The notes beneath the pieces are model-generated. The model had not been told where the DNA came from and did no database searches. It saw only the letters and a list, made by a program, of their open reading frames with translations. A stretch of 64,000 nt of DNA, taken from contig NC_083376.1 of assembly GCF_029542785.1 (NCBI RefSeq), positions 484,817 through 548,816 of the forward strand, given 5' to 3'. The position numbers and the translations under genes were made by a program. The stretch comes from Malassezia japonica. Its lineage: Eukaryota; Basidiomycota; Malasseziomycetes; Malasseziales; Malasseziaceae. This document shows positions 1 to 37,194 of this stretch, piece after piece. Position 1 is the stretch's first letter. Each line of letters opens with the position of its first letter.

Positions 1-1444
1 GTAGGCGTGTCCGGCGTGCTTAGCGAGGCCGGAAGCTGTGCCTCCTGGGGCTCTTGGTCCAGCTCAGGAGCCACCGGCGTGGAAACAGGCGAATCGGTCA
101 AGGCAGGAAGCGCGCCTTGGGCGGGGCTGGTCCGCGGAGGCGTAGACGCGACTTTGGTATCGATTGGGGCAAGATGGGCAGGGGGCTGCTTGGGTAGACG
201 AGCCGTCTCTTTTGGTTCGCGTGTGGCCGGCGTCTCGCTCGCACTGCCCTTGCCTTTGGGAATCAAAGGACTACTAGTGCGTACCGGCTTCGAAGGACTT
301 TGACTTTGGCGCTTCTCCCCGTCGCCCGGCCACATCTTGTCGAGTCCCAGCCAAGCCGAGCTTCCCGAGAAAAAGTCGGCCACGGCTCCCACCCCCGGCA
401 ACGGCTGCGAGAGGAGCCCCGGCTCGTCGTCCGAGGCTTGCGCCGAGGCATGCGCCCGGGCGCGTGCCTTGACATCGTCTTCACGCGCCTTGTCGAGTCC
501 CACGAGGTGCGCGAGGACATACATGGCCGTCTTTCTGCGGTCCTGCGCACCTAAGCCTCCCGTAGCCGCGCTCGAGTGTGCCGTGGGCCAGAGGACTTGG
601 TCGTCGCGCAGCAAGACCAAATCCAGTGGTTTCTCGCCGTCCATTGCGCTTACCGCACCGTCGAACCACTGCAGAGGCTTGGCGAGGTGCTCGGCGTCGA
701 CAAATGTGCATCCGCCCAGCTCCGGTACCGTTTCTGCGACGATCCCTATCGGCGTCGGCGGCGGTGCCGAGGCGTGCAGTGGCGATGCACGCTGGTGCTC
801 GACGTCCCATTGCCAGACCCATTTCGAAAAGTGGTTCTCGAGGCGCTGCTCCAGCACCTCTCGCCCCCTTACGTGCAGCATTTCTTCAGGATGCCCGTGT
901 CGGAGCTGCATAAGTGCAGCGACGTACCTGCCAGATATCCCAAGCGTCCTGGAGCTGGCGCTGCGCCCATTCCTCGACGAGCCACGGCAGGCGCTGCGGC
1001 TTGCGATTCGGCGGAATCCACTGTGCGGTCGTGATACACTGCGTGAGAAAAGCAACGTACGACATGCAGCCAGAAATGCGGCTGGACCTCGACGAGAATC
1101 AGGCGCCGGGCCTTGGACCCCACGGCGAGCCGGCGGAGGCCCGTCTCTGGGTGGTGCTGGCGGTGCACCGACGAGGCGAAATCGGTTAGTGCATTGGCCA
1201 GCGCGACCTGGCGCACAATCGTCGCCTGCGCTACGGCGTTCTCGAGGCTCGTATAGTACAGAATTTGGTCGGCGAGGCGCGCCGGATCTTCGGCCGCGAG
1301 GTGCTGCGTGAGCCGCGGGCAAAAGATCATCATGTACTGTACATGCGCCGGGATATACGACGGCATCTGCGGCGTGCCCGACCGTGTCGGCGGCGCCGAA
1401 AAGAGCGAAGAGCGCAGTGCAGACGGCACGACCGTCTGCAACAT
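1..1444 (-). CDS. CCZ1: CCZ1-like vacuolar fusion protein (5' part; runs off left edge)
   Basis: Subunit of the Mon1-Ccz1 guanine-nucleotide exchange factor that activates Rab7/Ypt7 at endosomes and vacuoles (family knowledge). Three exons: 1444-1061, 1038-928 and 905-1, with 22-nt introns at 1039-1060 and 906-927. Splicing gives at least 466 open codons and no stop before the window edge. Residues about 30-140 look like the first longin domain of the CCZ1/INTU/HPS4 family: a hydrophobic YMMIFCPRL strand, ADQILYYTS, then a conserved VALANALTDFA helix. The distal part is Ser/Pro/Thr-rich and probably a disordered linker. The start at 1444 is the first ATG after the upstream gene's stop; 1366 (MPSYIP) is an alternative. 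A CACGTG lies at 1484-1489. The assignment rests on pattern recognition of the N-terminal domain only. Confidence 0.68.
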
Positions 1445-1490
1445 GGTGCGGGGTATACAACTATCGCCTGGCCCCTGCGTGGGCACGTGA

Positions 1491-2300
1491 CTAGCTTGTC
1501 CAAGGGCGTGTCCGATACGTGGCCTGGGGCTGGCGCACTGGGAGGCGTGTCTCGCCGACCCATGGACCGAGGATTCGGCTGAGTGGGCGGTAGACCGTGT
1601 CGGGAATAGCAAACGTAGCAAACGCCGCGCTGTAGGTCACCGAGGCAAGCACGCCGAGCGCCACAGACACCACCGAGTACGGCGGCTGGGAGAAGGCGAG
1701 CTGCGTTAGTCGCTAAACGTACCAAGAGCATGGGAACGGCCACAAGCACACGGTCGGTGATTTCCAGTTCGCTGATGCGCATCGTCCACAGCGGTGGCGT
1801 CGTCTGGTAGAACTGATAGACAAGGGCGCCCAAGGCGCCAAACGGACCCCCTGGGAGGTACCCAGCGCCCAGTTTCTCGATCCACGGGCGCATTTGGAGC
1901 TTTGTCGGGAGCAGTGCGACTGCACCGCCCACGGCGATGCCCCACGCGAGCGAGAGGAGCGAGTGCAGTAGGCAGGTAATGAGGAGAAAGAGCTGCGTCA
2001 GTCTCGCTACGCACCCCCATCTTTTTCGTCCCAAACGCGCGCTCGACCATGCGCGCCGCATGGTACAGGATCAAAGACCCCAGCAGCATCTCGGAGCTAT
2101 TGGTATACACGACATGGTAGGTCAGCGCCTGCCAGTACTGTCCATATTTCGCGATGTGCGGCGTCCATCGGAACTGAAAATAGGGCTTGGCGGCGAGCAG
2201 CGACACCACCAGAGACCCCAGTGCCATACACACGATGGCCGCTGCGTCAGCTACGCTACGTACCTTTGGTCAGCGGCGCGTTCGCAAAGCCCGCTACCAT
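1491..2300 (-). CDS. DSC2: Dsc2/UBAC2-type rhomboid-like membrane protein
   Basis: Rhomboid-like pseudoprotease of the Golgi/ER Dsc ubiquitin-ligase system, or its UBAC2 counterpart (family knowledge). Four exons: 2300-2264, 2241-2015, 1992-1723 and 1700-1491. All three introns are exactly 22 nt (2242-2263, 1993-2014, 1701-1722). Product 247 aa. The start MVAGFANAPLTKA, the NSSEMLLGSL and RMVERAFGTKK stretches and the GGPFGALGALVYQFY segment match the family pattern across all three junctions. Several hydrophobic helices are visible. No C-terminal UBA domain is present: the protein stops shortly after the last hydrophobic region (ILGPWVG). It shares its strand with CCZ1, 46 bp downstream, and faces the BTB gene across 159 bp. 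Confidence 0.72.
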
Positions 2301-2459
2301 CCGCGCAACAGCCCAAGGTGTGGGGGGCGGATTCGATCCGATCGGGATCGGCCCAATGTACGCGTGGCTTTATGTACTGCATATGCGCGTCCCTGCGGGG
2401 GGAAAGCTGCCACAGCCCTGGAATTCCGCACAGGGGTGGTGCCTGCGCATCCCACCATC

Positions 2460-3906
2460 ATGTACCTGAACGCTACTGCTGCTGAGCCGGTTGTTGCGAC
2501 CAACGCGCCCGTCTATGTCGACGCGGTGCCCGAGCCGAAGCTTGCATCGGTGAGCCACGTTGCGCTGGACGCGATCGCCGCCGCTATCTGGGGCTCGCCC
2601 TTCTACGACACCGAGTTCCTCGTGAAGCACAAAGGCAAGGACCAGAGCCTCTTTTTGCACAGCAACGTCGTCAAGGCATCGTGCCCGGTGTTATACAAGA
2701 GTACGTCGTTCTACTAATCCAGAAATGCAGGCGGGCACGACAATCGAGCTGGACGCGATGGAGACGGCGCCACCGCCGGGCAACGCCCGCCGTGCGCCGG
2801 CCGCGACGCCGAACCGCCGTCCCGCGCCGGGCCCGGTGTCGCGCACTGCCGCGGACGACGAAGAGGTGCTGCTCGACGACTCGGACGACGAGTTTGATGA
2901 TGCGACGATCGACGACGCCTCGACCGTGCAGAGCGCCAACTTTGTCCCGGCCGCCCGCACGCCTGCTGCGCGCCCTACGAACGCCATGCCGCCGCCCGCC
3001 GTGCCGCCTAGCATCAACGAGTCGACAACGAGCCTCGCGACGACGCACTCGAACGGCTCGGCGACGCGCTCGACGAGCATCTTCTCGCGCCTGATGAAGA
3101 AGAAGAGCGTGCGCAACAACCTCGGCGACTCCTCCTTCTCGTCGCAGCCGAGTGGCGCAGACGCTGGGCGCCTGCGTCGCTACTCGGCGAATGCCGACGA
3201 GAATGGCCCGATCAGCGTGCCGAACACGTCGACGGGTGGCGCTTCGATGTACAATGCACGTTCGGCTGGTGCGCCTGCCGGTGCGCCTGCCGGTGCGTCC
3301 GGTGCGTCCGGTGCGCCTCCTTCGGCGCCTGGCACGCCGCGCTCGGGCGCGCGCCGCAACGGCAACAAGCCGTCGGCGGCGGCCCCCCGCCCCCAGTCGG
3401 GTGTGAAGCGTTTCCGTGTGACGGGTGCGACGCCGCGTTCGGTCCAGGCGCTAATCTTTTATCTGTACACGAGCCAGGCGCACTTTGTCTCGACGCCCCA
3501 CCAGTCGCCGCACAGCGATGCGACGTCGCTGCACGAAGAGGCCAACGAGCTCCTCGGCGACGGCTCCAAGCAGAGCCCCTCGCTCTGGCCGCCGACCTTT
3601 TCGAGCAAGGCTGCCTACTGCCTGGGCCACCAGCTCGAGCTGCGTGACCTGTCGATGCGTGCCTTTGACCACCTGACGCTGAACCTGTCGCCCCGCACCG
3701 TCCTTGCCGACCTCCTGTCGCCGTTTGGCGACCGCTTTGCCGAGGTGCAGCGTGCGCAGCTCGACTTTATTACGATGCACTGGGAGGAGGTCAAGACGCG
3801 CCCCGACTTTGCCCCGACGATTGAAAACCTCGTGCATGGCGAGTACCCTAACTCGAGCAAGAGTCTCTTCCACCTCTTCTCCAAGCTGAGCATCCGTAGC
3901 TACTAA
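2460..3906 (+). CDS. BTB/POZ-like domain protein
   Basis: Two exons (2460-2700 and 2723-3906) separated by a 22-nt intron at 2701-2722; product 474 aa. Residues about 45-82 (DTEFLVKHKGKDQSLFLHSN, then VVKASCPVLYKK) resemble the first half of a BTB fold, where a ligand-binding strand is followed by a helix that holds folded substrate adaptors. A long Ser/Pro/Gly/Ala-rich insertion with an acidic patch (DDEEVLLDDSDDEFDD) follows. After about residue 310 the fold seems to resume (VQALIFYLYTSQAHFVS, AYCLGHQLELRDL). A BTB split by a disordered insertion is seen in fungal proteins of unknown role. It converges on TIM23 with 36 bp between stop codons. The function is unknown; the domain call is moderately sure. 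Confidence 0.6.
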
Positions 3907-3942
3907 TACCATCGGTCGTAGATTCACTTTGCATCTATATTT

Positions 3943-4623
3943 TTACTCGAGGAACGCCTTCTTGGCGCCCGTCCATGTGGCCGCGATGCCGACCATGATC
4001 GAGCTCGAGACGAGCATCGCACGCGGGCCGGCGGTGCACCGGAAGAGCGCGCCGCTGAGCGCACCCGAGGCCATGCTGCCGTAGATGTCGTGCTTGCCAC
4101 GCAGGGCGTCGATGGACGCATCAAAGAGGTTGTATGTCATGGCAATCACACCCGCGCTGTTGCCAATAAAGGTGCTGCGGCGGGTGACCTGGTTCAGCAC
4201 CGCATTCATGCGCAGGCGGAAAGTCGGCGAGTCGATGCCGAGCGGGCGCGTAAGGCCCTCACGCAGGCCCATCAAGCTACCGACCGTCAGGCCACCGAGG
4301 TAGGTCGTGCCGGTGCCGTAGCACAGGTCGTCGCTCCAGCCGCGGCTCGGCAGCGCGGTCCGCGCACCCTCGAGAGTGTTGGGCCTGTCGTCCTCAATGT
4401 CCAGGTACTCGAGATCGTCCTCGCGGATGTGCGCGAGGGGGTGCAGCTTGGCGGGGTCCAGCGCCGTGTTGTGCAAGAGACTCGCAGCGGTCGGCGCCTC
4501 GGTGGGCGCAGTCTCTTGCGGCTGTTCAAACGAGTGGCTGCGCAGGTATTCCGTTGCGCTGGAATCCTGCGCAGGCGCAGCAGCAGGCGCGGAGCTCTCT
4601 TTCTGCGAGGAGAAGGGCCACAT
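3943..4623 (-). CDS. TIM23: TIM23, mitochondrial inner-membrane presequence translocase subunit
   Basis: Channel-forming subunit of the TIM23 complex that imports presequence proteins into the matrix (family knowledge). No intron; 226 aa from the start at 4623 (MWPFSS), close to the yeast length. An in-frame ATG at 4656 would add 11 residues. The first about 110 residues are the soluble intermembrane-space part, and the rest is the Tim17/22/23 four-helix domain with Gly-rich helices (TYLGGLTVGSLMGLREG, IGNSAGVIAMTYN, GSMASGALSGALFR). The conserved STFIGNSAGV stretch is intact. It is divergently transcribed from bL27m over 76 bp, with a CACGTG at 4667-4672; both neighbours are mitochondrial, so shared control is plausible. 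Confidence 0.9.
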   Translation of the reverse strand: MWPFSSQKESSAPAAAPAQDSSATEYLRSHSFEQPQETAPTEAPTAASLLHNTALDPAKLHPLAHIREDDLEYLDIEDDRPNTLEGARTALPSRGWSDDLCYGTGTTYLGGLTVGSLMGLREGLTRPLGIDSPTFRLRMNAVLNQVTRRSTFIGNSAGVIAMTYNLFDASIDALRGKHDIYGSMASGALSGALFRCTAGPRAMLVSSSIMVGIAATWTGAKKAFLE

Positions 4624-4699
4624 TACGGTGAGGGCTTGCGAAGCTTCGCTCGCCACTGACGATAGTCACGTGCACGAAGAAGGCTTTCTCTCGGAAACC

Positions 4700-5384
4700 A
4701 TGCTGGGCACGCTGGGCGCGGTGCGCACCGCGTCGCTGCGCATCGCTACGCCGCTGCAGACGGCGCTGATGCCGTCGAGTGCACTCGCACGGCCGGGCCT
4801 CGAGACGCTGCCGACGTTTGCGTTCGGTGGTGCGATCCAGACGCGTAACTCGGCCAAGCGCGGCGGTGGTACGACCAAGAACAACCGCAACAGTGCGGGT
4901 CGCCGCTTGGGTGTCAAGCGCTCGGGATGTACGTATTTTGTCTGACGCAGCGATGTTTGTGTACCCGGGCGAGATCCTCGTGCGCCAGCGCGGCACGTCG
5001 TGGCACGCAGGCGAAAACGTCAAGATGGGCCGCGACCATACTCTGTACGCCACAGAGCCGGGCGTCGTCTGGTTCTACAAGCCGCAGCAGGCACAGAAGC
5101 ATGCCGAGCAGAAGCCGGCACTGGGGGAGCTGCCGCTCCGCCTCTTGAAGCCGACGACGATCACACAGGCGACGCCGGAAGCGGTCAAGCCGCACCCTTC
5201 GTCGCCCCGCCGCGAGCGGCGGTACGTCGGCGTGGCGCTCAGCCGCGAGCTCTCGCTGCCGACCAAGATCGGCGCGCCGCGGCCACGCCGCTTTGATAAG
5301 ATTGACCTGAACGCGCTCGAGCGCGAAAAGGAGCTGCGGCGCAAGGGCATTGAGCCGATTGCGCTTGATCCATCCCTTGCGTAG
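4700..5384 (+). CDS. MRPL27-like (bL27m): Mitochondrial large-subunit ribosomal protein bL27m
   Basis: Homologue of bacterial L27, which lies near the peptidyl-transferase centre. Two exons (4700-4928 and 4951-5384) with a 22-nt intron at 4929-4950; product 220 aa. Residues 1-50 look like a mitochondrial presequence. The L27 core spans the splice junction: RRLGVKRSG from exon 1 joins [18 protein letters not shown], then [17 protein letters not shown]. Bacterial L27 has the same order without a gap, which is strong evidence for the intron. The C-terminal half is a fungal extension. Its stop is 8 bp from the stop of the convergent URI gene. Confidence 0.9.
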
Positions 5385-5392
5385 CTATGTAG

Positions 5393-7532
5393 TTACTCTT
5401 TGTGTCCTACAGAGGGAGGGTGCGGTGAACGGGCAGAAGACGCGGTACTGCCGTCGTGGTCCAGCGCGAGGCGCGCACGCATCAGCTCCTGCAGACGATC
5501 GTCGTCCTCGTCGCTCTCGCCGTCCAGGTCGATCACCGAGGGATCGTCAGGCGTCGGCTTGGGGTAGCGCACGGGCGCAAGCGAGGGGAGCACCATGACG
5601 GGCGCAGGCGCCTCGCCGCTGACCTCGTCCGCAAGCGCACGGCCGGCAGCATCCTCACGCCGCGCGGCAAGGTCGCCGTTGGGGTCGGGGATCGGCTCGC
5701 CGGCCATGCGCGCCGCCTTGAAGCGCGACACCTTGGGACGCTCGCGTTCCGCGGCCGTATTCGCACTGTCGGTGTGCGCCAGCGACGCACTGAGCGGCGC
5801 AACGCCGTACTCCTCCGCCGCATCCTCCTCGTCGTCGAGAGGCATGGGACGCTGCACCGGAAGCGCGAGACGTGCTTTAGCCTCGGCGTACTCGCGCGCG
5901 AGCTCCTCGGACCAGAACGCATCGTCGGAGTGCGCAGCCATGCTCGGCTTCAGCGCCTCGAGGTCCTCGGCGGTGTACTCGTCGTCACTGTCCCACAGGC
6001 CGTCGTCGCTCTCCATCGCGTCGGAATCCTGCTCGTAGGGGTGTACGGACGGGTTTTCCTCGTCGGTATCGTCATCCGCCATCGGCTCGTCCTCGTGCTC
6101 GTCCTCGACGTCCATCGGCGGCTCCGCCTCGACTACGGTCGGCGCGCCGAACCGCACGCGGCTCGCGCGCGCAGGCGCGGCCGGTGTCGTGAGCGCGTCT
6201 GCGCCGCCGGTCGCCTCGCCCTTTTCGCGCTTCTCCAGACGCTCGGCATAGGCTTTGGACGGGCGTGCATGCGGCACTTGGGGGGGAAGGCCTTGGTGTT
6301 TCCGCTGGCGCTCGAGAGGCTCGTCGGCGCGGCCTGCGCGCTCAATCGCCGGGATGCCTTGCGAGACCTGCGGCGCTTCCGGCACCTCGCTCTGGCCGCC
6401 CTGGCGCTCGAGCTGGCGCTGCTTGAATGCGCTCAGCTTTTTTCGGGGCGGCGGCGCACGGTCGGCGGGCGCCTCGGCGGGGCGCTCGACGATCGACTCG
6501 CCAATTGCCGGCTTTGCCGGCTCGCTTGGTTCTTGTGGCGGCGCTTGTGGCGCCTGGACGACGCGCTGCTGGTCGGCCTTCATGTCTGCAAAGATGCGCT
6601 CGGCGTTCGGATGCCCTTGAATCACTTCGGGCCCGAGCAGATTTACGATGCGCTGCGCTTCCTCCTCGACGCCGACGTCGTCGGGGTGCCGTCCGTAGTG
6701 AACTGACTTGGACCGCTTTTCCTTGACTTCGTCTTCGGACTCGCTCTCTTCGGGCACGGCGATGCGCACCTGCTTCTTGGGCCGCGTCGGCTGAGGATCC
6801 ACTTCGGCCGCCGACTCGGCCTTGCGCTGCAAGAAGCCGCGCTGAATCGACTTGAGCTTCGACGGCTCGGCCTCGGACGTGGCCGGCTCTGGCGCGGTGT
6901 CGCCGAGTTCTTGGGCCTCTTCCGCTTCGAGCTCGGCGAGGACCGAGTCCATCCACGCCTTGCGCGACGTGTCGTCGTCCGCTGCACGTTCCGGTAGGAA
7001 CGGCACGACGTGCCCTGGCGCGCGGTTCAACACATTGCCCGTCGGCGCCGTCGAGCGGTCGGCGCTAAAGTCGGGCGTGCGTGGCGGGGAGTCGGGCAGC
7101 TGCTCGAGCGGATCGACAAACGGCAGACCCTCTTCGTTCAGCACCTGGTTCTTTTCGTCCGTGGTATACTGCTCCCCGCCACTCGCGTCGCTCGGGAGGA
7201 GCTGGCGCAAGGAGTTTTCGAGGACGTGCTTGATCTGCACGTCAAACTGGGCTTTGAGCGTCGCCTGCTCTCTTTGGAGCGCTGCGTAAGTGGCAAAACC
7301 TACCTGCGCGTTTCTCGTCCAAGATCCGTACCGCGTCCGCACACGATGCGGCGTGCGCAAGCCCCGTGGCGTCCTCGCCGAGTCCCTGAAGGGCGGCGTT
7401 CGGCACGCTGGCGTCGCCAAGCGATGCCAAATGACCGCGCGTCGCATCCAGGCGCTCGAGGCGTCCTGCAATAGCCCGCGCCTGTGCTACAATCGGTGCC
7501 GCAGTATCTTGCTGGCCATCACGGGTCGCCAT
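5393..7532 (-). CDS. BUD27: URI/Bud27-like unconventional prefoldin
   Basis: Cytoplasmic prefoldin-like scaffold that binds Rpb5 and helps assemble RNA polymerases (family knowledge). Two exons (7532-7304 and 7281-5393) joined over a 22-nt intron at 7282-7303 that begins GTAGGT; 705 aa. Residues about 10-125 form a prefoldin-alpha type coiled coil, continued across the junction (ILDEKRAALQREQATLKAQF). The middle is acidic and disordered. The C-terminus carries a short basic motif, VSRFKAARMAG, typical of the DUF3835 region of fungal Bud27/URI proteins. It diverges from CCDC124 over 156 bp. Confidence 0.7.
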
Positions 7533-7688: not shown

Positions 7689-8364
7689 ATGCCCGCTAAG
7701 AGTACGTCCCCTAGCTAACGCAGTGAACTCCAAGGCCGTTGCTGGCCGTGCCCGCAAGGCCGAAGCCGCTGATCGCAAGCAAGCCGCTGCTGCCGAGCAG
7801 GCCGAAGCCGAAGAAGATGTCAAGTGGCAACAAGGCTCCAAAGGCAAATCGGCTGCCGACAAGCGCCAGGAGAAGGCCGAAGCTGATGCCCGCAAGCGTG
7901 CCGAACTCAAGCGTCTCGAGGAGGAGGACGATCGCGCTACCCCCGGCAAGCGCGGCGGCGGCGGCGGCGGCGGCAAGAAGAACGCAAAGAAGGGCCCCGA
8001 CGACCTCGACAAGCAGCTCGCCTCGCTCAACGCGTCCAACATGGACGACGCGATCGAGGCGATGTCGCTTGTGAACGAGCGCGAGGACTCGCGTGGCGCC
8101 GCCGCCGGTGCGCTCGAGAAGCACCCCGAGCGTCGCTTCAAGGCGGCGTTTGAGGCGTACAAGGAGCGCGAGCTGCCCAACCTGCGCGAGGAGCACCCCG
8201 GCCTGCGTCTGCAGCAGTACAACGACCTGATGTACAAGCACTTCCAAAAGTCCCCCGAGAACCCCTTCAACCAGCTGCACATCAACTACGATGCCAGCAA
8301 GGACGAGAAGCTTGCCGTGCTCAAGGCCAAGCGCGATGCGGCGACCGAGCGTCTTGCCGCCTAG
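7689..8364 (+). CDS. CCDC124/Lso2-type ribosome-associated coiled-coil protein
   Basis: CCDC124 (yeast Lso2) binds idle 80S ribosomes and helps them restart (family knowledge). Exon 1 is only 13 nt (7689-7701, M-P-A-K plus one base). A 22-nt intron (7702-7723) precedes exon 2 (7724-8364). Product 217 aa. The N-terminal half is Ala/Lys/Glu-rich coiled coil with a Gly run. The C-terminal CCDC124 domain is clear: EKHPERRFKAAFEAYKEREL, LRLQQYNDLMYKHFQKSPEN, then PFNQLHINYDA. A 514-bp gene-free stretch follows. Confidence 0.85.
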
Positions 8365-8878: not shown

Positions 8879-10078
8879 CTACAACTTGGCGGGGCGCGCC
8901 TGAGCGTGCTGCCATTGGTCGACGAGCGCGCCGACGTCGGCTGCGACGCCGTAGCTGGCCTGGTAGCCAGCAGGGCCTATAGGTTAGCAACGAGACGTAC
9001 CAATTCCGTACGCGTGGATCACACCGACCTTGCGGCCGTGCACGCTGAGCGGCGCATCGAGCTCGACACGCGCCCCGCCTTCGCGCGCGGGGCGCACACC
9101 GATGTTGTTGCTGATCACATCGAGGCCCACCCACGCGTTGGGGTCCTTGGGGTCGACGTAGTCAGGCAGGAGCTCGGGCGCAAGGGCGACACACTCCTTC
9201 AGGATGCGCTCGGTGACGTCCACATTGGGCTTCAGCGGGTTGGTGTTGCGCTCGTCAAACGTGCCTCCCAAAATCACTTGGCCGCTACGCGCACGGGGGA
9301 TCACGTAGCTCGCACCATGGGGAGTAATCCGGCTGTAGCATCGCGTGTACTTGGCGTCACGGAAGCGCGGCGCGTACACAAGCACCGTCTGGCCACGGAT
9401 GGGGTAGACTTTGTCGTCACGCACATCGTTCAGGCTCTTGCTGCCGAGGCCAGAGGCGTTGATGAGCAGCGCCGCGTCAGGGACGAGCTCTGCGGCAGCC
9501 TTGAGCGAGGGCAGGATCGCACGCACAAAGCGCACAGGAGGGCCGCTCAGGTCCTTGTGCTCTTCTTGGAGACGCTGCACCAGCCACTTGGTGTAGCGAG
9601 GGACATTGAGGCCGAGCGAGCGGAACTCGTACAGGTACGGCGCAGCATTGGTCGACTTGGGGTGCCCGGCACTGATTTTCATCTGCGTGAGTCTCGGTAC
9701 GTACGCCGCCACACAGCTCGCCGAACCAATACTGGTCATGGTCATTGTCCTTGTCGTGGAAGCACGAAAAGGGCATGAACGCGAGCGTCTCGTCCGGCAG
9801 CTCCTTCTGGAGCGCCTGGAACTTTTTGTAGGCAATCGAATCGCGGCGACGCTCCGTCTCGTTCTTTCCGGCGAACGAGACCCAGTTCGCGCCGGCCCAC
9901 GGCGAGGCAAAGCCTTGCGAATAGGTGTCCTCGGGAAGGTCACGCGCGATGATCGTCACATCGTAGCAGCGCGAGCGGAGCTCATGCGCAATCGTGAGGC
10001 CCAGCACTACTGTAAGAAGACCTAGCAAGACCTACCGCCAGCGCCAACCACCACCGCTTTCTTATCAGGGGTCGTCAT
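8879..10078 (-). CDS. DAO: D-amino-acid oxidase, peroxisomal
   Basis: FAD flavoenzyme that deaminates D-amino acids to keto acids, ammonia and H2O2. Four exons with introns at 10010-10035 (26 nt), 9683-9704 (22 nt) and 8977-9000 (24 nt); 375 aa. The N-terminal dinucleotide fold (AVVVGAG then VVLGLTIAHELRSRCYDVT) is completed only by removing intron 1. Family motifs include ASGLGS, the active-site region YSRITPHGASYVIPR, and the C-terminal HAYGIGPAGYQASYGVA signature, which spans intron 3. The protein ends in Ala-Lys-Leu, a peroxisomal PTS1-type signal. A CACGTG lies at 10122-10127 in the upstream region. It probably supports nitrogen acquisition from D-amino acids. Confidence 0.88.
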
Positions 10079-11793: not shown

Positions 11794-12541
11794 CTAGCTT
11801 GGGTATCTTAAGTCGGTCGGTGAATCAATCGTCGTCTGCCATAACGACTCCCACCGCACAATCGCGATGGGGAGCCGGGAGCTGGGCAGGATATCTTCGT
11901 CACGGTCCTGGTCGTCGGGGCGCGTCGACGTGCTCTCGTGGCCTTCCGCATCGGGCGAAGAGGTCTGCGAGGCAAGCAGCCGCTCGTTCACGTCCTCTTC
12001 CGACAGGTCATAGTAGACAGGCCCCGCAGAATCCCTTTCCATCACCGCGTGCTCTTCGGGGGTAATGTCGAGCGAATTCACACGGGTCGCGTCCAACCGG
12101 CACTTGGCCTCTTCCACAGTGATGGTCATAAGCACAATATGGAAGAACCAAATCACGACGTCGACCAGGAGCAGGTGCACCTTGGACACCGCATAGTCCT
12201 GCCCCACAAAATCGAGTATCACCCGGGGGGCGGTCGGCGAGGTGTCCTGGAAGAGCTGGTTCGCAGCGCACAGGAGGTGAAACATGGTCACCGAGCGCGC
12301 AAAGCCGGGCAGGGACCGCGCGACGGGGATCAGATTCGGCTGGACTGGGTGAGTCGGGGCACGTACGGAATTGCTGGGTCAGTCGCGCGACGTACATAGA
12401 GCACCATGAGCCGGATACATAAGAGGATCGTGAGGCCATCTAGCACATAGGCATAGACCATCATCACGGTCAAGACCCGGCGGAGCTTGGGTGAGCCAGG
12501 GAACCTACCAAGCCGAGCGCCTCGCGCCGCTCTTTTCGCAT
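11794..12541 (-). CDS. DUF1746 family membrane protein with a 7-nt microexon
   Basis: Four exons: 12541-12509, 12485-12396, 12373-12367 (7 nt) and 12344-11794. Introns are 12486-12508 (23 nt), 12374-12395 (22 nt) and 12345-12366 (22 nt). Product 226 aa. The N-terminal half resembles the fungal DUF1746 domain: a basic start (MRKERREALGLLRRVL), two hydrophobic segments (MMVYAYVLDGLTILLCIRL and LLVDVVIWFFHIVLM) and the LDFVGQDYAVSKVHLLL signature between them. The microexon (CAATTCC) contributes Gln-Phe and the first base of Leu, giving LYQFLQPN, which fits the domain; only the spliced form keeps the frame open. The acidic C-terminus is cytosolic-looking. The function is unknown. The start at 12541 avoids overlap with the divergent gene; an upstream in-frame ATG at 12619 also exists. 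Confidence 0.68.
12367..12373 (-). other. 7-nt microexon
   Basis: Minus-strand CAATTCC, bounded on both sides by 22-nt introns that each start GTACGT and end in a CTGAC or CTCAC element plus CCAG. Skipping it, or retaining either intron, breaks the frame into the conserved second transmembrane region. Its inclusion keeps it open. Confidence 0.65.
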
Positions 12542-19177: not shown

Positions 19178-20318
19178 ATGAGCGAGGCCACGGCCGTGTA
19201 CCGCCTGCTGACGATCCAGAGCCACGTAGCGTCTGGCTACGTCGGTACGTACCTATACTAATGTAGGCAATCGTGCAGGCACCTTTCCCTCGCAGCTCCT
19301 GGGCTGGGACGTGGACGCGGTGAATACGGTGCAGTTTTCGAACCACACCGGATACGGGCGCTGGGGCGGCCTGCGTTTCGACGCGGCACACCTCGCCGAC
19401 GTCTTTGCCAACATGAAGAAGAACGGTCTGCTGCGGCATAACCGAATCCTCACAGGTACGTTGCGCACGCACGCTGATCTAGGCTATACGCCGTCGCCCG
19501 AAGCGCTTGCTGCAGTGGAGGACCTGATCCGCGCCGAGCGCCAAAAGAACTCCTCGCTAATCTATCTGCTGGACCCTGTGATGGGTGACATGGACCGCGG
19601 GATGTACGTGTCGCCCGACGTGCTGCCGATCTACCGCCGCATGCTGCACCTCTCGTCCATTATCTGCCCGAACCAGTTTGAGGCGCAGGTCCTGGCGGGC
19701 ATGGATATCACCTCGCTCGACACGATGAAAGCGGTGCTCACCAAGCTTCACGCGGAGTATGGGGTGCCGCACGTCGTCATCACCTCGCTCGAACTGCCGG
19801 CCGACGACCTCGCCAAGATCGGCGCGGCGGTCACGCTTCCAGACGGCGCGCAGCCCATGCTCCTGGTAGGCTCGACGTGGGACGCGGAGAAGAAGTCGCC
19901 TCGGCCCTGGTTTCTGCAGTTCCCGTCGCACGGCGAGTACTTTAGCGGCGTCGGCGACTTGTTCGCCGCGCTGACCCTCGCCCGCTTCAGCGAGACGCCC
20001 GACGACCTCCCCGAGGCCGCGCGGGCCTCGTATGCCTCCTACGGCACGCCGGCAGAGAACGAGTGTACACTGCCGATTGCACGGGCCATTACGCTCGCTG
20101 TCGCATCGCTCCAGCACGTCTTGCTCCGCACCCACAAGACGATGGTCGAACTCGGAAAAGAGGAGGGCGTCGATCCGTTCCAGCCTACTCACACTGCCAG
20201 CGTCGAGGACCGCGTAAAAGTCATGCGTATGCGCGAGCTGCGCATTATCCAGAGCGCAGGCGACATTCTGCACCCCACCGTGCACTACCGTCCCCAGTGG
20301 ATGCACCATAGCGCATAG
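19178..20318 (+). CDS. BUD16: Pyridoxal kinase
   Basis: ATP-dependent kinase making pyridoxal 5'-phosphate by salvage. Three exons (19178-19244, 19267-19455, 19483-20318), with introns of 22 nt (19245-19266) and 27 nt (19456-19482); 363 aa. The strongly conserved segment IQSHVASGYVG joined to NRAGTFPSQLLGWDVDAVNT is rebuilt exactly across intron 1, and ILTGYTPSPEAL across intron 2. Other family signatures are NTVQFSNHTGYG, LLDPVMGD and the glycine-rich ATP-site GVGDLFAALTLARF. It lies only 11 bp upstream of the next same-strand gene's start, an unusually tight tandem pair. Confidence 0.93.
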
Positions 20319-20329: not shown

Positions 20330-21773
20330 ATGACGATCGCCGAATTGTACAATATTAAGCGCGCGGCGCGCGCCGATCGGCAGGTCGGCTACAAGCCCGA
20401 GAAGCTCACCGAGCCAGGGACGCCGCGCATCTGTGGGATGTACGTACTGTTTCTTACCCAGATGTTTTGCGCGGCCGGCCAAGTACAGCTGCCCATCGTG
20501 CAATATTCCGTACTGCTCCTTGCCATGCTTCCGCGCGAATGTGCACCGTGCGTGCTCGGAGCCGTTTGCGGTGCAGTCGGCTAGAGCAAATCTGGATAAA
20601 GGAGACGTGTCGGTGGACGACGAGGAGCGCCGCAAGACGCTCGAGCTCTTGTGGCGGCTCGAGACGGGCGAGGGCGTCGTGAGCGACGACAGCGACCAGG
20701 ACGACGTCGAGGACGACGGGCGCTCGGTGGACGAGCTGCTCGGCATGCTCTCGCTTGCAGACCGCCAGCGGTTCCAGTCTTTGCTTAGAGACCCTTCGCG
20801 CGCTGCACGTATGTACTTTGACGACGAAGAGCTTGTGCAGCTCTGGTGGAGCGGCGAGCAGTGGCCGGGCACAGATACTGCGTTTGCCTCGGACGTGAGC
20901 GCAATGGCAGCGGCACCGCCAGCACGCGTCGATCTTCGGTACAATGTGCTGGGCGTCCTCCTTGCGTATACGTACACGCTGCGTCATCTTCAGCTTGCAA
21001 GCTGTACGACGTTAGACAAAGCCACGGTGGCGGAGCCGAGTAGCGCATCGCTGCAAGCCGCGTCTGTGCCTGCGGACGATGACGACAGCGACGGCGAGCC
21101 GCCGCCTCTGGAAGACGTATCCGACAGCACTAGCGATACCCCTGCGCATGCCCCGGCAGAGCGTAGCATACCCGATACCAAGGCCGGCGATACAGACAAG
21201 GTCGGTGATACCCACGATACCCCGCTGGACGATACCGAGTCTGCCGAACTCCGCGATTCTGGCGTGCTTTTGCTGGAGCGACTTGCTCCTTTTCTCTTTG
21301 CGCCCCCACGCACGCCCGATGCGACGCTGGTGCTGACGAGCATCGAGGATGCGGGTCTGTACCTCCTGCAGAAGCTCGGCCCCAAAGACATGGGCACGGA
21401 GCCCGGCCAGCTCCTCCTTGCGCTCCTGCGCGATGTCGAGCCGCTGTGCGAGCCGCGGTCCGTTGCCGAGGCCGACGACGCCCTCGGCGCCGCTCCGCTC
21501 CTCCATGCCCTTGCCGACCTCGACGGATGGCTGCGTCCTAGGAAAAGCGCATCAAAAAAGCTCGTCTTTTACGCACATGCATACGCGTCTGCTCCTCACG
21601 AAGCACAGCAGTCGCTGCACCGCTCGCTGCAGCGCGAGATTGAGCGCCTGGAAAAAGAGCAGGACGACCAGCAGCACGTTGCGCGCGTCGCCGCAGCCAA
21701 CTCGACGGTCGGCCGCATGGACACGCGCGTCCAGCGGCTTTCTGCGCCAAACAAGATCGAGGTACTCGAGTAG
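20330..21773 (+). CDS. HIT-type zinc-finger protein, ZNHIT2-like
   Basis: Two exons (20330-20439 and 20462-21773) around a 22-nt intron at 20440-20461; 473 aa. Splicing completes an N-terminal zf-HIT: CGICFARPAKYSCPSCNIPY, then CSLPCFRANVHRACSE, with all eight Cys/His ligands present (about residues 35-70). ZNHIT2-type proteins assist R2TP/HSP90-dependent assembly, including U5 snRNP and polymerase complexes (family knowledge). The rest is acidic and helical, with a central low-complexity Asp/Thr-Pro section and a C-terminal coiled coil. Its TAG abuts the TAG of SPC34 on the other strand with no base between them. Confidence 0.8.
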
Positions 21774-23605
21774 CTATGCAAAGCGGAACGCCGCCGCGCC
21801 TCCTACGCGATGGATGCGCAGGATCTTCTTCGAGACCAGTCCGTAGACCGCACGCGAGCCGAGCACGTCGCCTTTCTGGTCGACCTCGCCGGCATCGAGG
21901 CCGAGGTGCTTGATCGGCTCATTCGCGAGATCCGGCGTCGCGGCCGTCGTGCGAAAGATGGCCTGGCCACGCTGCCGCCACCACGACTCGGTCAGCGTCT
22001 TGACCGATGCGAGCGTGAGCGAGTGCGGCGCCGGCGTCCGGAACAGGAGCAGGAGAATGTGCGCCATCACGACCGTATTCACGCTCAGTGGCGCACTTGG
22101 CTCCAGCGTGCTGCTCTGGGCAGAGAGGGCACTGATGCCCGACGGCGCATGCATCGAATCGTCTGCCGACGCACCTCCGTCCATGCGCGCTGTCGCGGGG
22201 TCCTGCCCACAGCACTCCAGCGTCGAGAGATAGGTAAAGGTATCGGAGAACGGAGCGGCGGTCGCTGCCGGCGCGACGTACCGCAGACTCTCGCCAAAGT
22301 GCAGCCAGATCTGCGCGGCGGCCCGCTCAAGCTCCGCACTTGGATCCGGCGCCGTGCCGGGGGGAAGGAGCGCGGGCTTGGCAGGCGAGCGCTCTTTCAG
22401 CGGCGAGGCCGCACGGGCGCGCTGGGGCGTCGCGGGCGAGCGCGGCGGCGTTGCGGTGCTGCGTAGCTCGTCGGTACGGCCGGGCGTATAGCCGACCGAC
22501 TGCGCGAGCGGCGGGCGCGGCGTCCCGTCGAGTGTGCGGCGCATGCGCGCGGCCGCCGGTGTGCGGCGCTCCGGCGTACGTCCAGCAACCGACTGCGCGA
22601 GCGGGCTCGCTGGCGGCGCGGCACGATTCCGCAGCGGCGTGCTGGGCGACTTGGCCGGCGTGCGCGACGTGCTCGGCACCGGCGCCCGCGTCGACTGCCC
22701 CAGCCGCGGCTCTTGCCGGCTCGGTGCCTTTTCGGGGCTGCGCTGCGACGCGCTGAAACGGTCGCGCAGCGCAGACGCGCTGCGGCCCTGGGACTGCGAC
22801 TGGCCCAGAGGGCGGTCGCGGACCAACGCACCGAGCGGCCGCTTGCTCGGCGTGCGTGTGTGCGGCGAGTCTACAGGTGGGGCCGCAGGCGAGGCCGGCT
22901 CGGGCTTGCCCTGCAGGACCTGGGCAAGGTCTGACGTGTCGTCCTCGGCCTTCTTGGACGGCGACTGGGTGAGACGTGCAACGTACCTCGAGTTCCGCAA
23001 GCATATTCTCGAGCGCGAGAATCTCCATCTTTTCGCGCTGGATCTCGCTCTTGACCTGGCGCAGCTCCGTGTTCTCCGAGAGGCGCGGCCGCACCGGCTC
23101 GCGTTTCTCCTTGCTCGGCGTCGGCTGCTGCTTGGCCTTTTCGATCGTCGCCGTGTACCGAGCGATATGGCGCTGCACCTCGCCGTCGCGTTTCAGGAGC
23201 ATGCGGATGTGCTTGCGTGCGCGGGGTGCATTATGGCTGGGTCAGTCGCGCAACGTACTAGCTCTGCATGAGTTTCTCGGCGGCGAGCAGGTAGAACTGC
23301 GCGCTGTGCTCGCCCGGCGCACTCGTTACGCCCCTGCGCAGCGGAGTGGGAATATGCACCGGCTTGATCTGCGGCGCACGCGGCGTCTCGGCGCCCCGCT
23401 CGCGCTCCACGTCCTCCGGGGGATAGGCAAACATGGACGCCTCCAGCTGGTCGGCGTCGCGGATCAGTTCGAGGATATCGACATTCTCTGGACGCAGCAC
23501 GGCATTGGTAAAGTAGCTCGGCGCGCTATCTGCGCTCTTGCTCGCGCTGCACTGGGTACGGATCGCGTCGAGCGAGCCGTGGAGCGACGCGAGATGCGCC
23601 TCCAT
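21774..23605 (-). CDS. SPC34: DASH complex subunit Spc34 with long C-terminal extension
   Basis: The DASH/Dam1 ring couples kinetochores to microtubules. Three exons (23605-23259, 23236-22987, 22964-21774), both introns 22 nt (23237-23258, 22965-22986); 595 aa. Residues about 1-195 match Spc34: [20 protein letters not shown] near the start, [12 protein letters not shown] joined over intron 1 to [13 protein letters not shown], and a C-terminal coiled coil ([17 protein letters not shown]) ending at intron 2. Unusually, about 400 more residues follow: a Ser/Pro/Arg-rich linker with many SP/TP sites, then a globular-looking terminal domain (about residues 440-595) ending [20 protein letters not shown], reminiscent of a winged helix. 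Divergent from AMP deaminase over 66 bp. Confidence 0.75.
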
Positions 23606-28853: not shown

Positions 28854-28866
28854 CTCTAACCTCCAC

Positions 28867-29645
28867 ATGCTCCCCACGTCGTTGCGGTCGATGTATGCGC
28901 CGCTGTCGGCGCCGCCGCGCGCCGAGCGGCCGCTGCACGTAGTGCTGGCGTGTAGCGGGAGCGTAGCGAGTGTCAAGGTGCCGCTGATGGCCGCGCGCCT
29001 GCTCGAGGTACGTCGCTTGTCTTATAGAGTACGAAAATGTGCACGTCCACATTGTCGCTTCGCGCGATGCGCTCCACTTTGTGGACGTCGCGGAGATTGC
29101 GCGCCTCGGCCCCGACGGCGCGTCGTATACCGTGCACGATCTGGCGGCGTCGAACAAGGCCGCGGAGCGCATCGCAGCGGGCGAAGATGTCACGCAGCCG
29201 CCGGCGCCCCGGCTGCGGCTCTGGACGGACGCCGAGGAGTGGGGCGCGTGGAAGGCGCTCGGCGATCCCGTGCTGCACATTGAGGTGTGTATTGTCGCTA
29301 ATGCAGTTGCGGCGGTGGGCCGATATTGTCCTCATTGCGCCGTGCAGCGCCAATACGCTTGCCAAGCTTGCGCACGGACTGTGCGACAATATCGTGACGT
29401 CGTTCCTGCGCGCCTTGTCTCCCAGTACGCCGACGCTGCTCTTTCCCGCGATGAACACGCTCATGTACATGCATCCCCATACCGAGAAGCAGCTCGCGAT
29501 TGCGCGCGACGAGCTCAACTACGAGGTATACGGCCCGATCGAGAAGCGGCTTGCGTGTGGCGATCTCGGCACTGGGGCCATGTTTGAGTGGGCGGACATT
29601 GTGGCGCTTGTTGTGGAGCGTTTCGAGCTGCGTGCGTCCTCATAG
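28867..29645 (+). CDS. Phosphopantothenoylcysteine decarboxylase
   Basis: FMN enzyme of coenzyme A synthesis (Hal3/Cab3/AtHal3 family). Three exons (28867-29007, 29030-29284, 29307-29645), both introns 22 nt (29008-29029 and 29285-29306); 244 aa. Family motifs are all present: VVLACSGSVASVKVPLM, the catalytic His in SRDALHFVDV, APCSANTLAKLAHGLCDNI, PAMNTLMYMHPHT, and the active-site Cys in RLACGDLGTG. The RRWADIVLIAPCSANT motif begins right after intron 2, which supports that junction. An alternative ATG at 28846 overlaps the upstream stop and adds seven residues. Confidence 0.92.
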
Positions 29646-29672
29646 CGATGTACACTACGGATGGATATCTAG

Positions 29673-32054: not shown

Positions 32055-32107
32055 GGCGGAGGAAGCTGACTAATCTTTTGCGCTCCCGGCTTGGACAGCG
32101 CCACGGC

Positions 32108-35100: not shown

Positions 35101-35338
35101 CATCAAGAAGAATGAAGAGACGAGTAAAGTCCGCGTCCTTGCCCGCAATGCTGTCAATGGCAATGTCGTGTTGAACTTTTTGCTATACAGCGGCTTCAAG
35201 GTGACAGGCGACAAGAGCGTCCTCTCGTTTGTCGGCATGATTGATGCGAAGCCTTGCAGCCTGCGCTGCAAGGTCAAGACGATCGATGCGGCAAACGCGT
35301 TGAGGGATGCATTGATGAGCAACACAAACTCGGCCTAG
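32108..35338 (+). CDS. FG nucleoporin with C-terminal Ran-binding domain
   Basis: Nuclear-pore basket nucleoporin of the Nup1/Nup2/Nup50/Nup153 type. Single exon, 1076 aa. The N-terminus (MRRSSSVLGGLFNWMSPFRG) looks like a membrane-binding amphipathic segment. A long disordered, charged region follows, then about a dozen FSFGKP or FAFG repeats (residues about 650-880) that bind karyopherins. Five copies of the hexapeptide DAPATS come next. The last about 105 residues form a Ran-binding domain: EVRAKIWKLEEGKWQDLGIT, then VRVLARNAVNGNVVLNFLL. The RanBD suggests a Nup2/Nup50-like role; the N-terminal helix suggests Nup1/Nup60. Which one is unclear. Confidence 0.85.
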   Translation: MQSSGSGEASPMRRSSSVLGGLFNWMSPFRGGDASDAERGDTSIEEPYSPLPRTASGLLHEPPSERGGLPSTVSYSALPTQKPALPRASFGESSDTYAARWDSPRALYQPDTSLASNPSPLARRGQAADFHAGSYETPTKRTPNTSIGSVSPFAPPSTGRKHRPIYFGAGTSPRTTKPYSPLRSSMTASRSLNALAAPEEPKRRKTEASPSAALPVHFEKPSAPSAPSAQVDEPSRKRPAESAPEKEAPPPTRAASTMLSVLETSEPLPPAPVPEIVNPYQTRQSTRSPRAATPRSTRAKALEAARKRASTTPRDADAPPKVSLLDMVERTAPASSPERRRSKRLQNTEEDKGEEDALEVPKTWQMNKPKRPSPLAMGVGKEKEAQDEASKPKEDKEEKEAPKETAEKEAGDKRKVTFEAPLPAKDAVAKPSSNDAGAPAPEPKRSVFAPPKAEMPKGIPPKSFAPFTNTGFPLSAAPTESASPLALSHHDNSNISGTSPHSLYRSPSAPSLPTSAGGFAPHLTAPAPVPFVSAPPVPAVQIKAPEPTVVKEPLPEYLQGVPTWSIVQPPWKHTKDTSSEAARRASQVPYEDLPTFSFTIPQTTVHGADASPPNSGSMPYAVFGSQSSAKPHEQKEQAMGTGRSPIAPSPGFSFSQPTKLSTSKADAEMPPTSASAFSKPYETPSFGGLAANFSFGKPEAAPAKESSEQPSSFSFGKPAEPAQEKPSSFSFGKPAEAQEKPSGFAFSKPAEAAEKPSGFAFGTPAESKEKPPASSFGAPAQSIAKPSGFSFGKPADQATDKPSEPAQDKPAFSFGKPADKPSGFSFGQSQDKPAFSFGSGSGFSFGKPADTQPSLSFGKPQSPSPSGFAFGGAPSFAHQPGSAEGPPKSSAGLAFGMTKETPMLGEPVPLGGPASSALAADAPATSDAPATSDAPATSDAPATSDAPATSDAPAPSGDSALTSAGEGEEGEETLHEVRAKIWKLEEGKWQDLGITLFRIKKNEETSKVRVLARNAVNGNVVLNFLLYSGFKVTGDKSVLSFVGMIDAKPCSLRCKVKTIDAANALRDALMSNTNSA
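34868..34957 (+). repeat. Tandem 18-nt repeat, five copies (DAPATS)
   Basis: GATGCGCCTGCCACGTCC repeated five times, nearly identical at the DNA level, inside the nucleoporin gene between the FG repeats and the Ran-binding domain. The sixth unit is degenerate (DAPAPS). The near-identity implies recent expansion, and copy number may vary between strains. Confidence 0.9.
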
Positions 35339-35744
35339 GAATGAACTGTTTTTCAAGCATCACCGTGTGCGTCAGGTCAGCCCGTACGCCCTCCTATTTG
35401 ATTGCCTTGTCTGTCAGTGGCCTGGCGATTGAAGCGAGCGGCAAGAGAAAATGGGGTGCTATGGATTTAGGTGGCGCTGGCTGTACCAGCGTCGCCCATT
35501 GAAACGCCCCCGACATTCCGAATAGCAGGGAGCTTGCAATGAAAAGATTGTACGTATTCACCACAGGCGAGAAATCGGGCGGCGACTAGACAGACGGGCC
35601 AAGGCCGATGCCTGCGCTGCGAAGGTGCCGTCCCAGAACAACACCCACAAGCCAAACCAGCACCACACAGGATTTGTGCGTGCCGGTGACACAACGGGGT
35701 ACAGCAGAGCACATAGCTATGGGTATGCGCGGTAACCGCAGAAA
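35339..35744. other. Convergent intergenic stretch, nothing recognised
   Basis: 406 bp between the nucleoporin stop and the KEI1 stop. I see no ORF, tRNA or repeat that I can support. Confidence 0.5.
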
Positions 35745-36564
35745 CTATACATGCTCGCTCGACGTACCGTTGGGCTTGTTCTCCGCAGGGTCGTCTGGCA
35801 GCTCCGCCTCGTCCTCCTCGCCCGGCACCGACTGGTAGGCCGAGGCATGCGCCGCATTCGCCGCGCGCGACTTGGACAAGGGCAGCATCCAGTAGGTGCC
35901 GTGACGGAGGTGCAGTGCATAGGCGTAGAGCACCAGCGCAAAGTAGAGCTTGATCAGCCAGCCGCCGACCAGCACACCCGCGGAAAAGTCGCGCTCTGCC
36001 ACCCAGATGGCATTGGCGGCCTGCGCGCGGCGCTGTGCCTCCTTCTGGCCTTCGGGCGTGTTCACGTCGTAGTCCTTATGGCGGTACTTGGCCATTTCTT
36101 CTGGCGTGCGGTACTCTGCCTCGAGGTTTTCAATGAGTGTCATCAGGCCCGCCTGGTGGCTCGAATTCGACACCGGCTTGCCGTCATGCGCCGCATAGGC
36201 ATACCACCAGAACGCAAAGAGCAGCGTCCAGCCGGTCGAGACCATGTGGTCCAAGATAAAGATATGGGCATACCGAAGAACAGCGCCGGGTTTTTCCTGG
36301 GTAAGTCGAAGCACGTACGTCGCTAATAGCCTTCAGGCCCCAAATGAACACGGGGATCGTGGCGATAGAGTAGATATAAAGAGAGAGTTGGGCAACCGTG
36401 CCGCCTTGGAAAATCGCAATGATGCCGTAAATGCCGGCAATCTTGTTGAAGAGGGAAAACAAAGTGAGGATTTGACTGCCGACTTTAATATCCATGAAAC
36501 CAAGGAACGACGTCACATACGTCTGTATAGACGCACTGGGGGGGCGGAAGTACACTCGCGGCAT
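35745..36564 (-). CDS. KEI1: Kei1, inositol phosphorylceramide synthase regulatory subunit
   Basis: Golgi membrane subunit required with Aur1 for inositol phosphorylceramide synthesis (DUF1753/Kei1 family). Two exons (36564-36319 and 36296-35745) with a 22-nt intron at 36297-36318; 265 aa. The N-terminus SFLGFMDIKVGSQILTLFSL, then FNKIAGIYGIIAIFQGG, is the family signature. Four hydrophobic segments are visible, the third (FILDHMVSTGWTLLFAFWWY) just after the splice junction. The C-terminal cytosolic tail has the SAYQSVPGEEDEAELPDDP stretch typical of the family. Confidence 0.85.
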
Positions 36565-36680
36565 GATTCCTCGCCGTCAAGAGAGGCTGTCGTCGCGTAG
36601 CGAAGCACGGCGCTCCACGTGCGCCCACGTGGCATTTCCACGCGACGCGCGGCACGACGCCAGTGGGGCTCTACACGATG

Positions 36681-37194
36681 CTAAATGTCCCAGTCCTCGT
36701 CGTCGCTGTCCATCTTCTTTTTCCGCGCGACCTGCGTTAGCCCATAGACGTACCGTAATCTTTCCGGTCTCTTGCGCAGGATTCGCCTGGTCGATCTGGT
36801 CGAGGAGCGCAATCAGCTGGTCCTCGGTGACACGCTGCCGCACTTGGCCACTGCGCGCCATCTGCAGCAAAATATCCGAGACGGCGTTCGACTTTTGCGG
36901 CTTGACCAGCGCAATGCGCGACACTTGGTAAGATAAGGAAACATACACCGCTCGCGCGCGTCGCTATCGAGGATCTGGCTCAGCATCTGGCGCTTCATCT
37001 CTTCCTGCTGTGCCAGCTTCTCCTCGCGCTCTCCATCGGCACCGCCCGAGGCGCCAAGGCCAGCGGGGAGTCCACCAGGAACACCACCACCTGCAGTGGG
37101 ACCTGAATTAGCCAGTCCACGTACCGCCCCCGGCACTGCCCCGTAGCTCAGCCATACGCGCACGCCTAATTGCCTCCAGCTCGGGGTCGCTCAT
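36681..37194 (-). CDS. PDCD5/TFAR19 family DNA-binding protein
   Basis: Small helical-bundle protein, a TFAR19 homologue linked in animals to apoptosis and to CCT chaperonin binding. Four exons; introns 37103-37124 (22 nt), 36924-36946 (23 nt) and 36732-36753 (22 nt); 148 aa. It starts MSDPELEAIRRARMAELRG as in PDCD5 proteins across eukaryotes. A Gly-rich insertion replaces the usual short linker. The core EEMKRQMLSQILDSDARERL joined to SRIALVKPQKSNAV is restored exactly across intron 2, and the acidic end (MDSDDEDWDI) is reached only after intron 3. Three introns in 514 bp make this a good test gene for ultrashort splicing. Confidence 0.9.

Follow-up and report, generated by a model that had tools for sequence, protein, structure and literature searches.

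A stretch of 64,000 nucleotides of the Malassezia japonica genome (assembly GCF_029542785.1, contig NC_083376.1, positions 484,817 to 548,816; hereafter the window) carries segments of exactly 22 nucleotides (nt) that begin and end like introns. The question that this locus raises is whether such segments can be genuine spliceosomal introns and, if they are, what sets their length, which is far below that usual in fungi. An earlier note, made from the sequence alone, had listed 21 of them in 14 genes and had described them as a uniform class whose branch point is nearly fused to the acceptor. We consider it very likely that they are ordinary GT-AG (U2-type) spliceosomal introns of this skin yeast, at the smallest size that its spliceosome accepts.

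Abundance, lengths and reading frame

The pattern GTRNGT-N7-CTNAY-NN-AG has exactly 21 matches in the window, 14 of them on the minus strand, compared with a mean of 0.10 and a maximum of one in 100 dinucleotide shuffles. All 21 positions in the earlier note are thereby confirmed as 22-nt segments, and our own grouping also assigns them to 14 genes, with the matches at 36732 and 37103 joined in the PDCD5 gene. The putative branch A falls where it had been placed, at nt 17, i.e. 16 nt past the first nucleotide and 5 nt before the last G. Combining the same donors and the same CTNAY-NN-AG ends at any other overall length between 15 and 60 nt yields at most two matches per length in the window.

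Across the genome (8.43 Mb in nine contigs) the GTACGT form of the 22-nt pattern occurs 2,183 times, as against three for a reversed control, and GTACGT donors at lengths of 15-21 nt stay at chance level (11 versus nine in the control). The distribution of lengths was obtained from a sample of 264 kb, made up of the window plus 200 kb from contig 1 and amounting to about 3% of the genome, by counting GTRNGT donors with CTNAY 2 or 3 nt before AG alongside the control:

16-21 nt: 2 observed, 2 control
22 nt: 88 observed, 2 control
23 nt: 24 observed, 0 control
24-30 nt: 27 observed, 3 control
31-40 nt: 8 observed, 6 control
41-60 nt: 15 observed, 17 control
61-100 nt: 28 observed, 27 control

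Once the control is subtracted, an excess of 86 remains at 22 nt, 24 at 23 nt, 24 at 24-30 nt and two at 31-40 nt, so that 134 of the 136 net introns fall within 22-30 nt. As expected of a class of tiny introns, there is a single narrow mode below 25 nt with the branch A fixed at nt 17 (88 observed, two in the control). The dominant minimum length is 22 nt, although not the sole length: what stands of the uniformity claimed earlier is a sharp peak at a hard lower limit, which holds about 86 of the 136 net introns (63%), while introns of 23-30 nt with the same ends also exist, including two inside the window, of 23 nt (36924, minus strand) and 27 nt (19456, plus strand).

The coding frame was followed across the 88 sampled 22-nt introns, using 90 nt on each side and a codon model whose training set was 97 long open frames of the 264 kb. 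Frames could be called with confidence for 65 of them, and in 59 of these the shift is +1, which is the shift expected for removal of 22 nt and means that removal restores the coding frame, as for U2-type introns. At background GA-N20 places (34,108 examined) a +1 shift was found in 1,073 of 18,764 confident cases. Four of the sampled introns show a shift of 2; they are two pairs flanking micro-exons of 9 nt and 7 nt, and they fit because removing two introns (44 nt) predicts precisely that shift. The two cases of shift 0 are the last introns of EFM4 (54 nt left to the gene end) and YKT6 (21 nt, stop included), where in our reading the downstream test window runs out of gene.

Genes and proteins across the junctions

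Thirteen gene models were made for the window and ten of them were scanned with Pfam. In seven of the ten a match runs across a junction (Rhomboid, L27, DUF1746, zf-HIT, Kei1, Flavoprotein and PDCD5); in the other three (DAO, Spc34 and Ccdc124/LSO) it stops short of the junction. Counted by intron, homology spans the junction for 12 of the 21. The PDCD5 score rises from 32.9 to 109.1 bits once a 23-nt intron and a second 22-nt intron are also removed. In the pyridoxal kinase the rebuilt junction IQSHV-xxGYVGNR agrees with M. nana and M. vespertilionis (the closest named homologues, at 67%) and with smut fungi. Its further intron, of 27 nt, accounts for an insertion that no other sequence in an alignment of 12 proteins shows, apart from a near-identical metagenome open reading frame. 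The rebuilding of conserved motifs that had been proposed from the sequence therefore holds for bL27m, pyridoxal kinase, PDCD5 and PPC decarboxylase, where domain or homology matches cross the junctions. It does not extend to the DASH protein, whose Spc34 match ends short of them, and a "Sec-type" protein could not be confirmed: the three-intron gene at 1491-2300 has a Rhomboid match, with DUF1751 just below the cut-off.

The window introns are listed here, each entry starting from the lowest coordinate of the match, whichever its strand:

906..927, minus: 22-nt intron; motif, spliced open frame, phase 0
1039..1060, minus: 22-nt intron; motif, spliced open frame, phase 0
1701..1722, minus: 22-nt intron, Rhomboid-like gene; Rhomboid match 46-203 covers the junction at residue 178
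1993..2014, minus: 22-nt intron, Rhomboid-like gene; Rhomboid match covers the junction at residue 88
2242..2263, minus: 22-nt intron, Rhomboid-like gene; motif and open frame
2701..2722, plus: 22-nt intron; motif, unspliced read meets an in-frame stop after 14 nt
4929..4950, plus: 22-nt intron, bL27m gene; Ribosomal_L27 match 52-123 covers the junction
7282..7303, minus: 22-nt intron; motif and open frame
7702..7723, plus: 22-nt intron, Ccdc124/LSO2-like gene; motif and open frame, domain matches start downstream
9683..9704, minus: 22-nt intron, DAO-family oxidoreductase gene; motif and open frame, DAO match starts downstream
12345..12366, minus: 22-nt intron after the 7-nt micro-exon, DUF1746 gene; DUF1746 match 2-96 covers it, frame shift 2 as for two introns
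12367..12373, minus: 7-nt micro-exon CAATTCC, DUF1746 gene; between two 22-nt introns, frame and DUF1746 match
12374..12395, minus: 22-nt intron before the 7-nt micro-exon, DUF1746 gene; frame shift 2, DUF1746 match
19245..19266, plus: 22-nt intron, pyridoxal kinase gene; junction rebuilds IQSHV-xxGYVGNR
19456..19482, plus: 27-nt intron, pyridoxal kinase gene; same ends, length 3n, no stop, takes out the insertion
20440..20461, plus: 22-nt intron, zf-HIT protein gene; zf-HIT match 33-61 covers the junction at residue 36
22965..22986, minus: 22-nt intron, DASH Spc34-like gene; motif and open frame, Spc34 match upstream
23237..23258, minus: 22-nt intron, DASH Spc34-like gene; motif and open frame, Spc34 match upstream
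29008..29029, plus: 22-nt intron, PPC decarboxylase gene; Flavoprotein match 31-243 and match to PDB 6eoa cover it
29285..29306, plus: 22-nt intron, PPC decarboxylase gene; junction inside HIELRRWAD, matched in 6eoa and 1e20
36297..36318, minus: 22-nt intron, Kei1 gene; Kei1 match 19-215 covers residue 82
36732..36753, minus: 22-nt intron, PDCD5 gene; once three introns are taken out, PDCD5 match 9-136 extends past the junction at residue 132
36924..36946, minus: 23-nt intron, PDCD5 gene; removal with the intron at 36732 lifts the PDCD5 match
37103..37124, minus: 22-nt intron, PDCD5 gene; PDCD5 match covers residue 23

Four more segments of 23-26 nt with the same ends look intron-like by motif, at 12486 (minus), 17716 (minus), 40570 (plus) and 42415 (minus).

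Similar genes were found beyond the window. A Rab gene has two 22-nt introns, with junctions at residues 75 and 147 and a Rab14 match over residues 6-173 of 205. The gene for the splicing-associated protein HUB1/UBL5 (contig 1) is interrupted by four 22-nt introns and includes a 14-nt micro-exon, within a frame of 73 codons; in a PDB search its product matches UBL5 structures over residues 3-73, polyubiquitin constructs being top by E-value and UBL5 the best single-domain match. In YKT6 (contig 1), which has an 8-nt micro-exon, a 23-nt intron splits the ATG; the Longin match begins at residue 45, and the N-terminus is backed by frame and motif. The micro-exons of 7, 9, 8 (YKT6) and 14 nt (HUB1) all came from a scan of the 264 kb for exons no longer than 40 nt flanked by strict motifs of 22-24 nt. 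For the DUF1746 gene, which holds the 7-nt micro-exon, a single metagenome fragment with 79% coverage was found as a protein homologue.

EFM4 (contig 1, about 262450, minus strand) contains six introns, five of 22 nt and one of 24 nt, as well as the 9-nt micro-exon. Without its introns it encodes 253 amino acids, which equals the length of the annotated M. sympodialis EFM4, its best named homologue, and the two are 66-67% identical; a PDB search gave two weak partial matches only. Among the 120 matches listed there are nine EFM4 proteins named as Malassezia, of which only one, from M. sympodialis, keeps every junction intact. In the remaining eight the micro-exon or a 48-nt exon is lost, or there is a break or stop at DKGT. 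As far as a single gene can suggest, tiny introns could be the cause of these annotation errors. The M. sympodialis protein is annotated intact through the micro-exon region, so that its annotation dealt with tiny introns, should it have any.

The two distances and the splicing machinery

All these introns have GT-AG ends with a donor consensus, as U2-type introns do. The search pattern fixed G1, T2, G5, T6 and CTNAY and restricted position 3 to A or G; within it, position 3 is A in 84 and position 4 is C in 68 of the 88 sampled introns. To the donors named in the earlier note (GTACGT, less often GTGCGT, GTAGGT or GTGTGT) the sample beyond the window adds GTATGT, GTAGGC, GTATGC and GTAAGC. At position 9, 78 introns have a pyrimidine and none has G, a bias which suggests that the donor signal extends beyond the hexamer. 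A purine stands at position 13, just before CTNAY, in 64, and a C at position 20 in 79. Pyrimidines make up 57% of the spacer without forming a tract. Total information over the 88 introns is about 26 bits, a figure inflated by the search itself, in which nine positions were fixed and two others restricted.

The floor shifts with the gap between CTNAY and AG. In the 264 kb, introns with a gap of 2 nt begin at 22 nt, and those with a gap of 3 nt begin at 23 nt (10 introns), with none observed and one in the control at 22 nt; the floor therefore acts on the spacing from donor to branch. When candidates with gaps of 0-15 nt were sorted by reading frame, 69 were supported and 25 contradicted at gap 2, 16 and six at gap 3, and 29 and 122 at the other fourteen gaps together, so that CTNAY stands 2-3 nt from AG in 85 of the 114 supported candidates. 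The spacing from branch to AG is thus short and is fixed independently of the donor-to-branch distance. Longer introns with other branch spacing were screened by frame alone, up to 150 nt. Gap 14 contributes eight of the 29 supported candidates at other gaps, five of them 34 nt long; six of eight candidates of this 34-nt form share their donor with a 22-nt intron, so that most of them simply correspond to the following in-frame AG.

These observations would be accounted for if two distances had each a minimum. The GTACGT hexamer would have to lie at least 7 nt from CTNAY, so that the branch A would come no earlier than nucleotide 17, and the AG would end 5 (sometimes 6) nt past the branch A, which would leave no space for a downstream pyrimidine tract. 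Both distances at their minimum would give 22 nt, and introns of 23-30 nt would have a somewhat longer donor spacer or one additional nucleotide ahead of the AG. Recognition would presumably be by intron definition, with U1/U6 at the donor, U2 at CTNAY and the entire intron read as one cassette. That the RNA is spliced at the predicted points, that the A of CTNAY is the branch nucleotide and that the floor has a steric cause we infer from sequence.

The splicing machinery looks largely ordinary in the parts examined, namely U2, U6, U2AF1, SF1 and the N-terminus of Cwc25. The small nuclear RNAs (snRNAs) U2 and U6 score above the Rfam cut-offs, with canonical GUAGUA and ACAGAGA, and the branch motif can pair with U2 GUAGUA as in U2-type introns, CTNAY itself having been fixed by the search pattern. 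The earlier note had proposed looking for changes in splicing factors; for the U2AF part, which was taken up here, U2AF1 looks ordinary (57% identical to human over residues 4-200, with two CCCH fingers), and a U2AF2-like open frame of 568 amino acids scores 224.4 bits with TIGR01642, under the curated cut-off of 310.3. Loss of U2AF as the basis of the fused branch point was rejected on these grounds. Cwc25 begins MGAGDLNMKKSWHP, which we take to be near the consensus, and its N-terminus looks ordinary; loss of its N-terminal plug, as in Stentor, was likewise rejected. Homology to SF1 is present in the genome. Its reading frame breaks within consecutive C residues (around nt 1670 of the fetched stretch, minus strand); an intron at that point was considered and dismissed, the break lying within the C run and probably being an assembly indel.

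The usual 5' end of U1 is ATACTTACCTG, and ATACGTACCTG is the form expected if U1 has co-evolved with the C at position +4. Rfam gave no U1 match in the genome, nor in control genomes. The pattern ATACNTACCTG occurs at 17 genomic places, none with the usual T, and ATACTTACCTG is absent among these 17. None of the 12 places scanned with Rfam scored as U1, and at three of them the other strand carries an intron-like match. Two further U1 patterns gave three hits against three in the control and one against none, that one without Rfam support.

Alternative explanations and known systems

A branch point fused to the acceptor in spliceosomal introns, as the earlier note had it, is thus supported by genome counts, length counts, frame shifts, domains and the core sites of U2 and U6. 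Several observations weigh on the other side. The U1 snRNA was not found by Rfam and three sequence-pattern searches of the genome. As many as 23 of the 88 sampled introns had no confident frame, six of the 65 that did shifted otherwise than by +1, and the codon model was trained on the same 264 kb that was tested; in a variant with 75-nt flanks and any GT donor (n=108), 53 agreed, 43 were untestable and 12 were contrary. The frame likewise contradicted the 25 candidates at gap 2 and six at gap 3 in the branch-spacing screen. The length counts are blind to layouts other than GTRNGT with CTNAY 2-3 nt before AG. Finally, nine of the 21 window introns have the motif and an open frame, with no homology over the junction.

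One may consider that the segments are introner-like elements, i.e. recent multiplied copies of one 22-nt sequence, spliced by chance. Their high copy number and near-uniform length would agree with this, as would a slight excess of pairs with five of the seven spacer bases in common; yet all 88 sampled copies are distinct, and the pairs sharing five, six and seven spacer bases (143, 22 and 1) compare with column-shuffled means of 123.6, 19.1 and 1.1, values that 19, 79 and 198 of 300 shuffles reached. Similarity beyond the splice motifs is therefore close to that of the column shuffles, and we give copying only a very slight chance. Least probable of all, to the point of being negligible, is that coding sequence which is in fact retained, or an assembly artefact, mimics splice sites. 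The frame break at the C run in SF1 does suggest that the assembly may hold indels, but indels would not repeat one motif 2,183 times against three, and 59 of the 65 frame shifts fit removal of 22 nt, which also restores independent domains.

The floor itself could also be non-mechanical, if selection favoured lengths of 3n+1 so that a retained intron shifts the frame and exposes the transcript to nonsense-mediated decay. The length of 22 nt is indeed 3n+1, and 46 of the 59 frame-confirmed introns have no internal in-frame stop on read-through, so that retention would be exposed by the frame shift itself. Such selection should, however, also allow 16 and 19 nt, where there is no excess (two observed, one control), and it sits poorly with a floor that moves to 23 nt when one more nucleotide precedes the AG, or with the stop-free 3n introns of pyridoxal kinase (27 nt) and EFM4 (24 nt). 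We regard it as quite unlikely, and favour ordinary introns held at a mechanical minimum.

Among the closest parallels is the ciliate Stentor coeruleus, with introns of 15-16 nt; in those of 15 nt the branch A is nucleotide 10, which leaves 5 nt to the 3' end (PMC9505925). Like those of Malassezia, its introns are near-uniform, tiny and GT-AG, U2AF1 and U2AF2 are kept and the core sites of U2 and U6 are conserved; the acceptor distance is the same, whereas the donor distance differs (nucleotide 10 versus 17), as do the lineages, a ciliate and a fungus (PMC9505925). According to the available portions of the same paper, Stentor lacks a strong consensus at the branch and its Cwc25 has an altered N-terminal plug, in contrast to the strong CTNAY and the MGAGDLNMKKSWHP start in Malassezia (PMC9505925). 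Giardia, Spironucleus and Trichomonas resemble Malassezia in a branch motif fixed at the 3' end and an extended donor motif (PMC6679479, PMC12316389). In the Giardia motif VCTRACACRCAG, however, the A lies 7 nt from the end by our count, rather than 5-6 nt (PMC6679479), and Trichomonas, with introns down to 23 nt, has 63 active introns in T. vaginalis, compared with thousands in Malassezia (PMC12316389). In 2025 that 23-nt intron was called among the shortest known, comparable only with those of 15 nt in Stentor and 18 nt in Bigelowiella (PMC12316389). The Bigelowiella nucleomorph, compared here by citation only, shares very short spliceosomal introns and a compact genome, but is a relic algal nucleus (PMC12316389).

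For Malassezia itself, a review credits the genus with "very short introns" (PMC7426719), annotated introns have a median of 30 nt in M. restricta and 40 nt in M. arunalokei (PMC9241646), and the mean is 76-79 nt in M. globosa (PMC4634964). The available portions of these three papers describe neither a mode at 22 nt nor a length floor nor a branch point fused to the acceptor (PMC9241646, PMC4634964, PMC7426719). The 22-nt class is also undescribed in the open-access literature searched, a body that lacks the genome and proteogenomics papers on M. sympodialis and the genome paper on M. globosa, so that its absence is not established; the phenomenon may be implicit in the M. sympodialis annotation or described in further papers. 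A fungal survey places M. sympodialis among eight intron-poor species (PMC8476143), a ranking that may be partly due to missed tiny introns.

Judging from the available portions of the work cited, reports of introns this short concern ciliates, a nucleomorph and parasitic protists. A transformation system exists for M. furfur and M. sympodialis (PMC5654937), and Malassezia would offer a transformable fungal genus in which the minimum spliceosomal geometry could be tested directly. We tentatively propose, with rather less than even confidence, that a fungal spliceosome which keeps SF1 and both U2AF subunits reads a rigid 22-nt cassette, defined by two fixed distances and no pyrimidine tract after the branch, and tolerates micro-exons of 7-14 nt, that this holds throughout the genus, and that the 5' end of U1 has possibly changed to fit the C at +4 of GTACGT. 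Tiny introns may explain mistakes in published Malassezia gene models and, if the proposal is true, the intron-poor status of Malassezia and many of those models would need revision.

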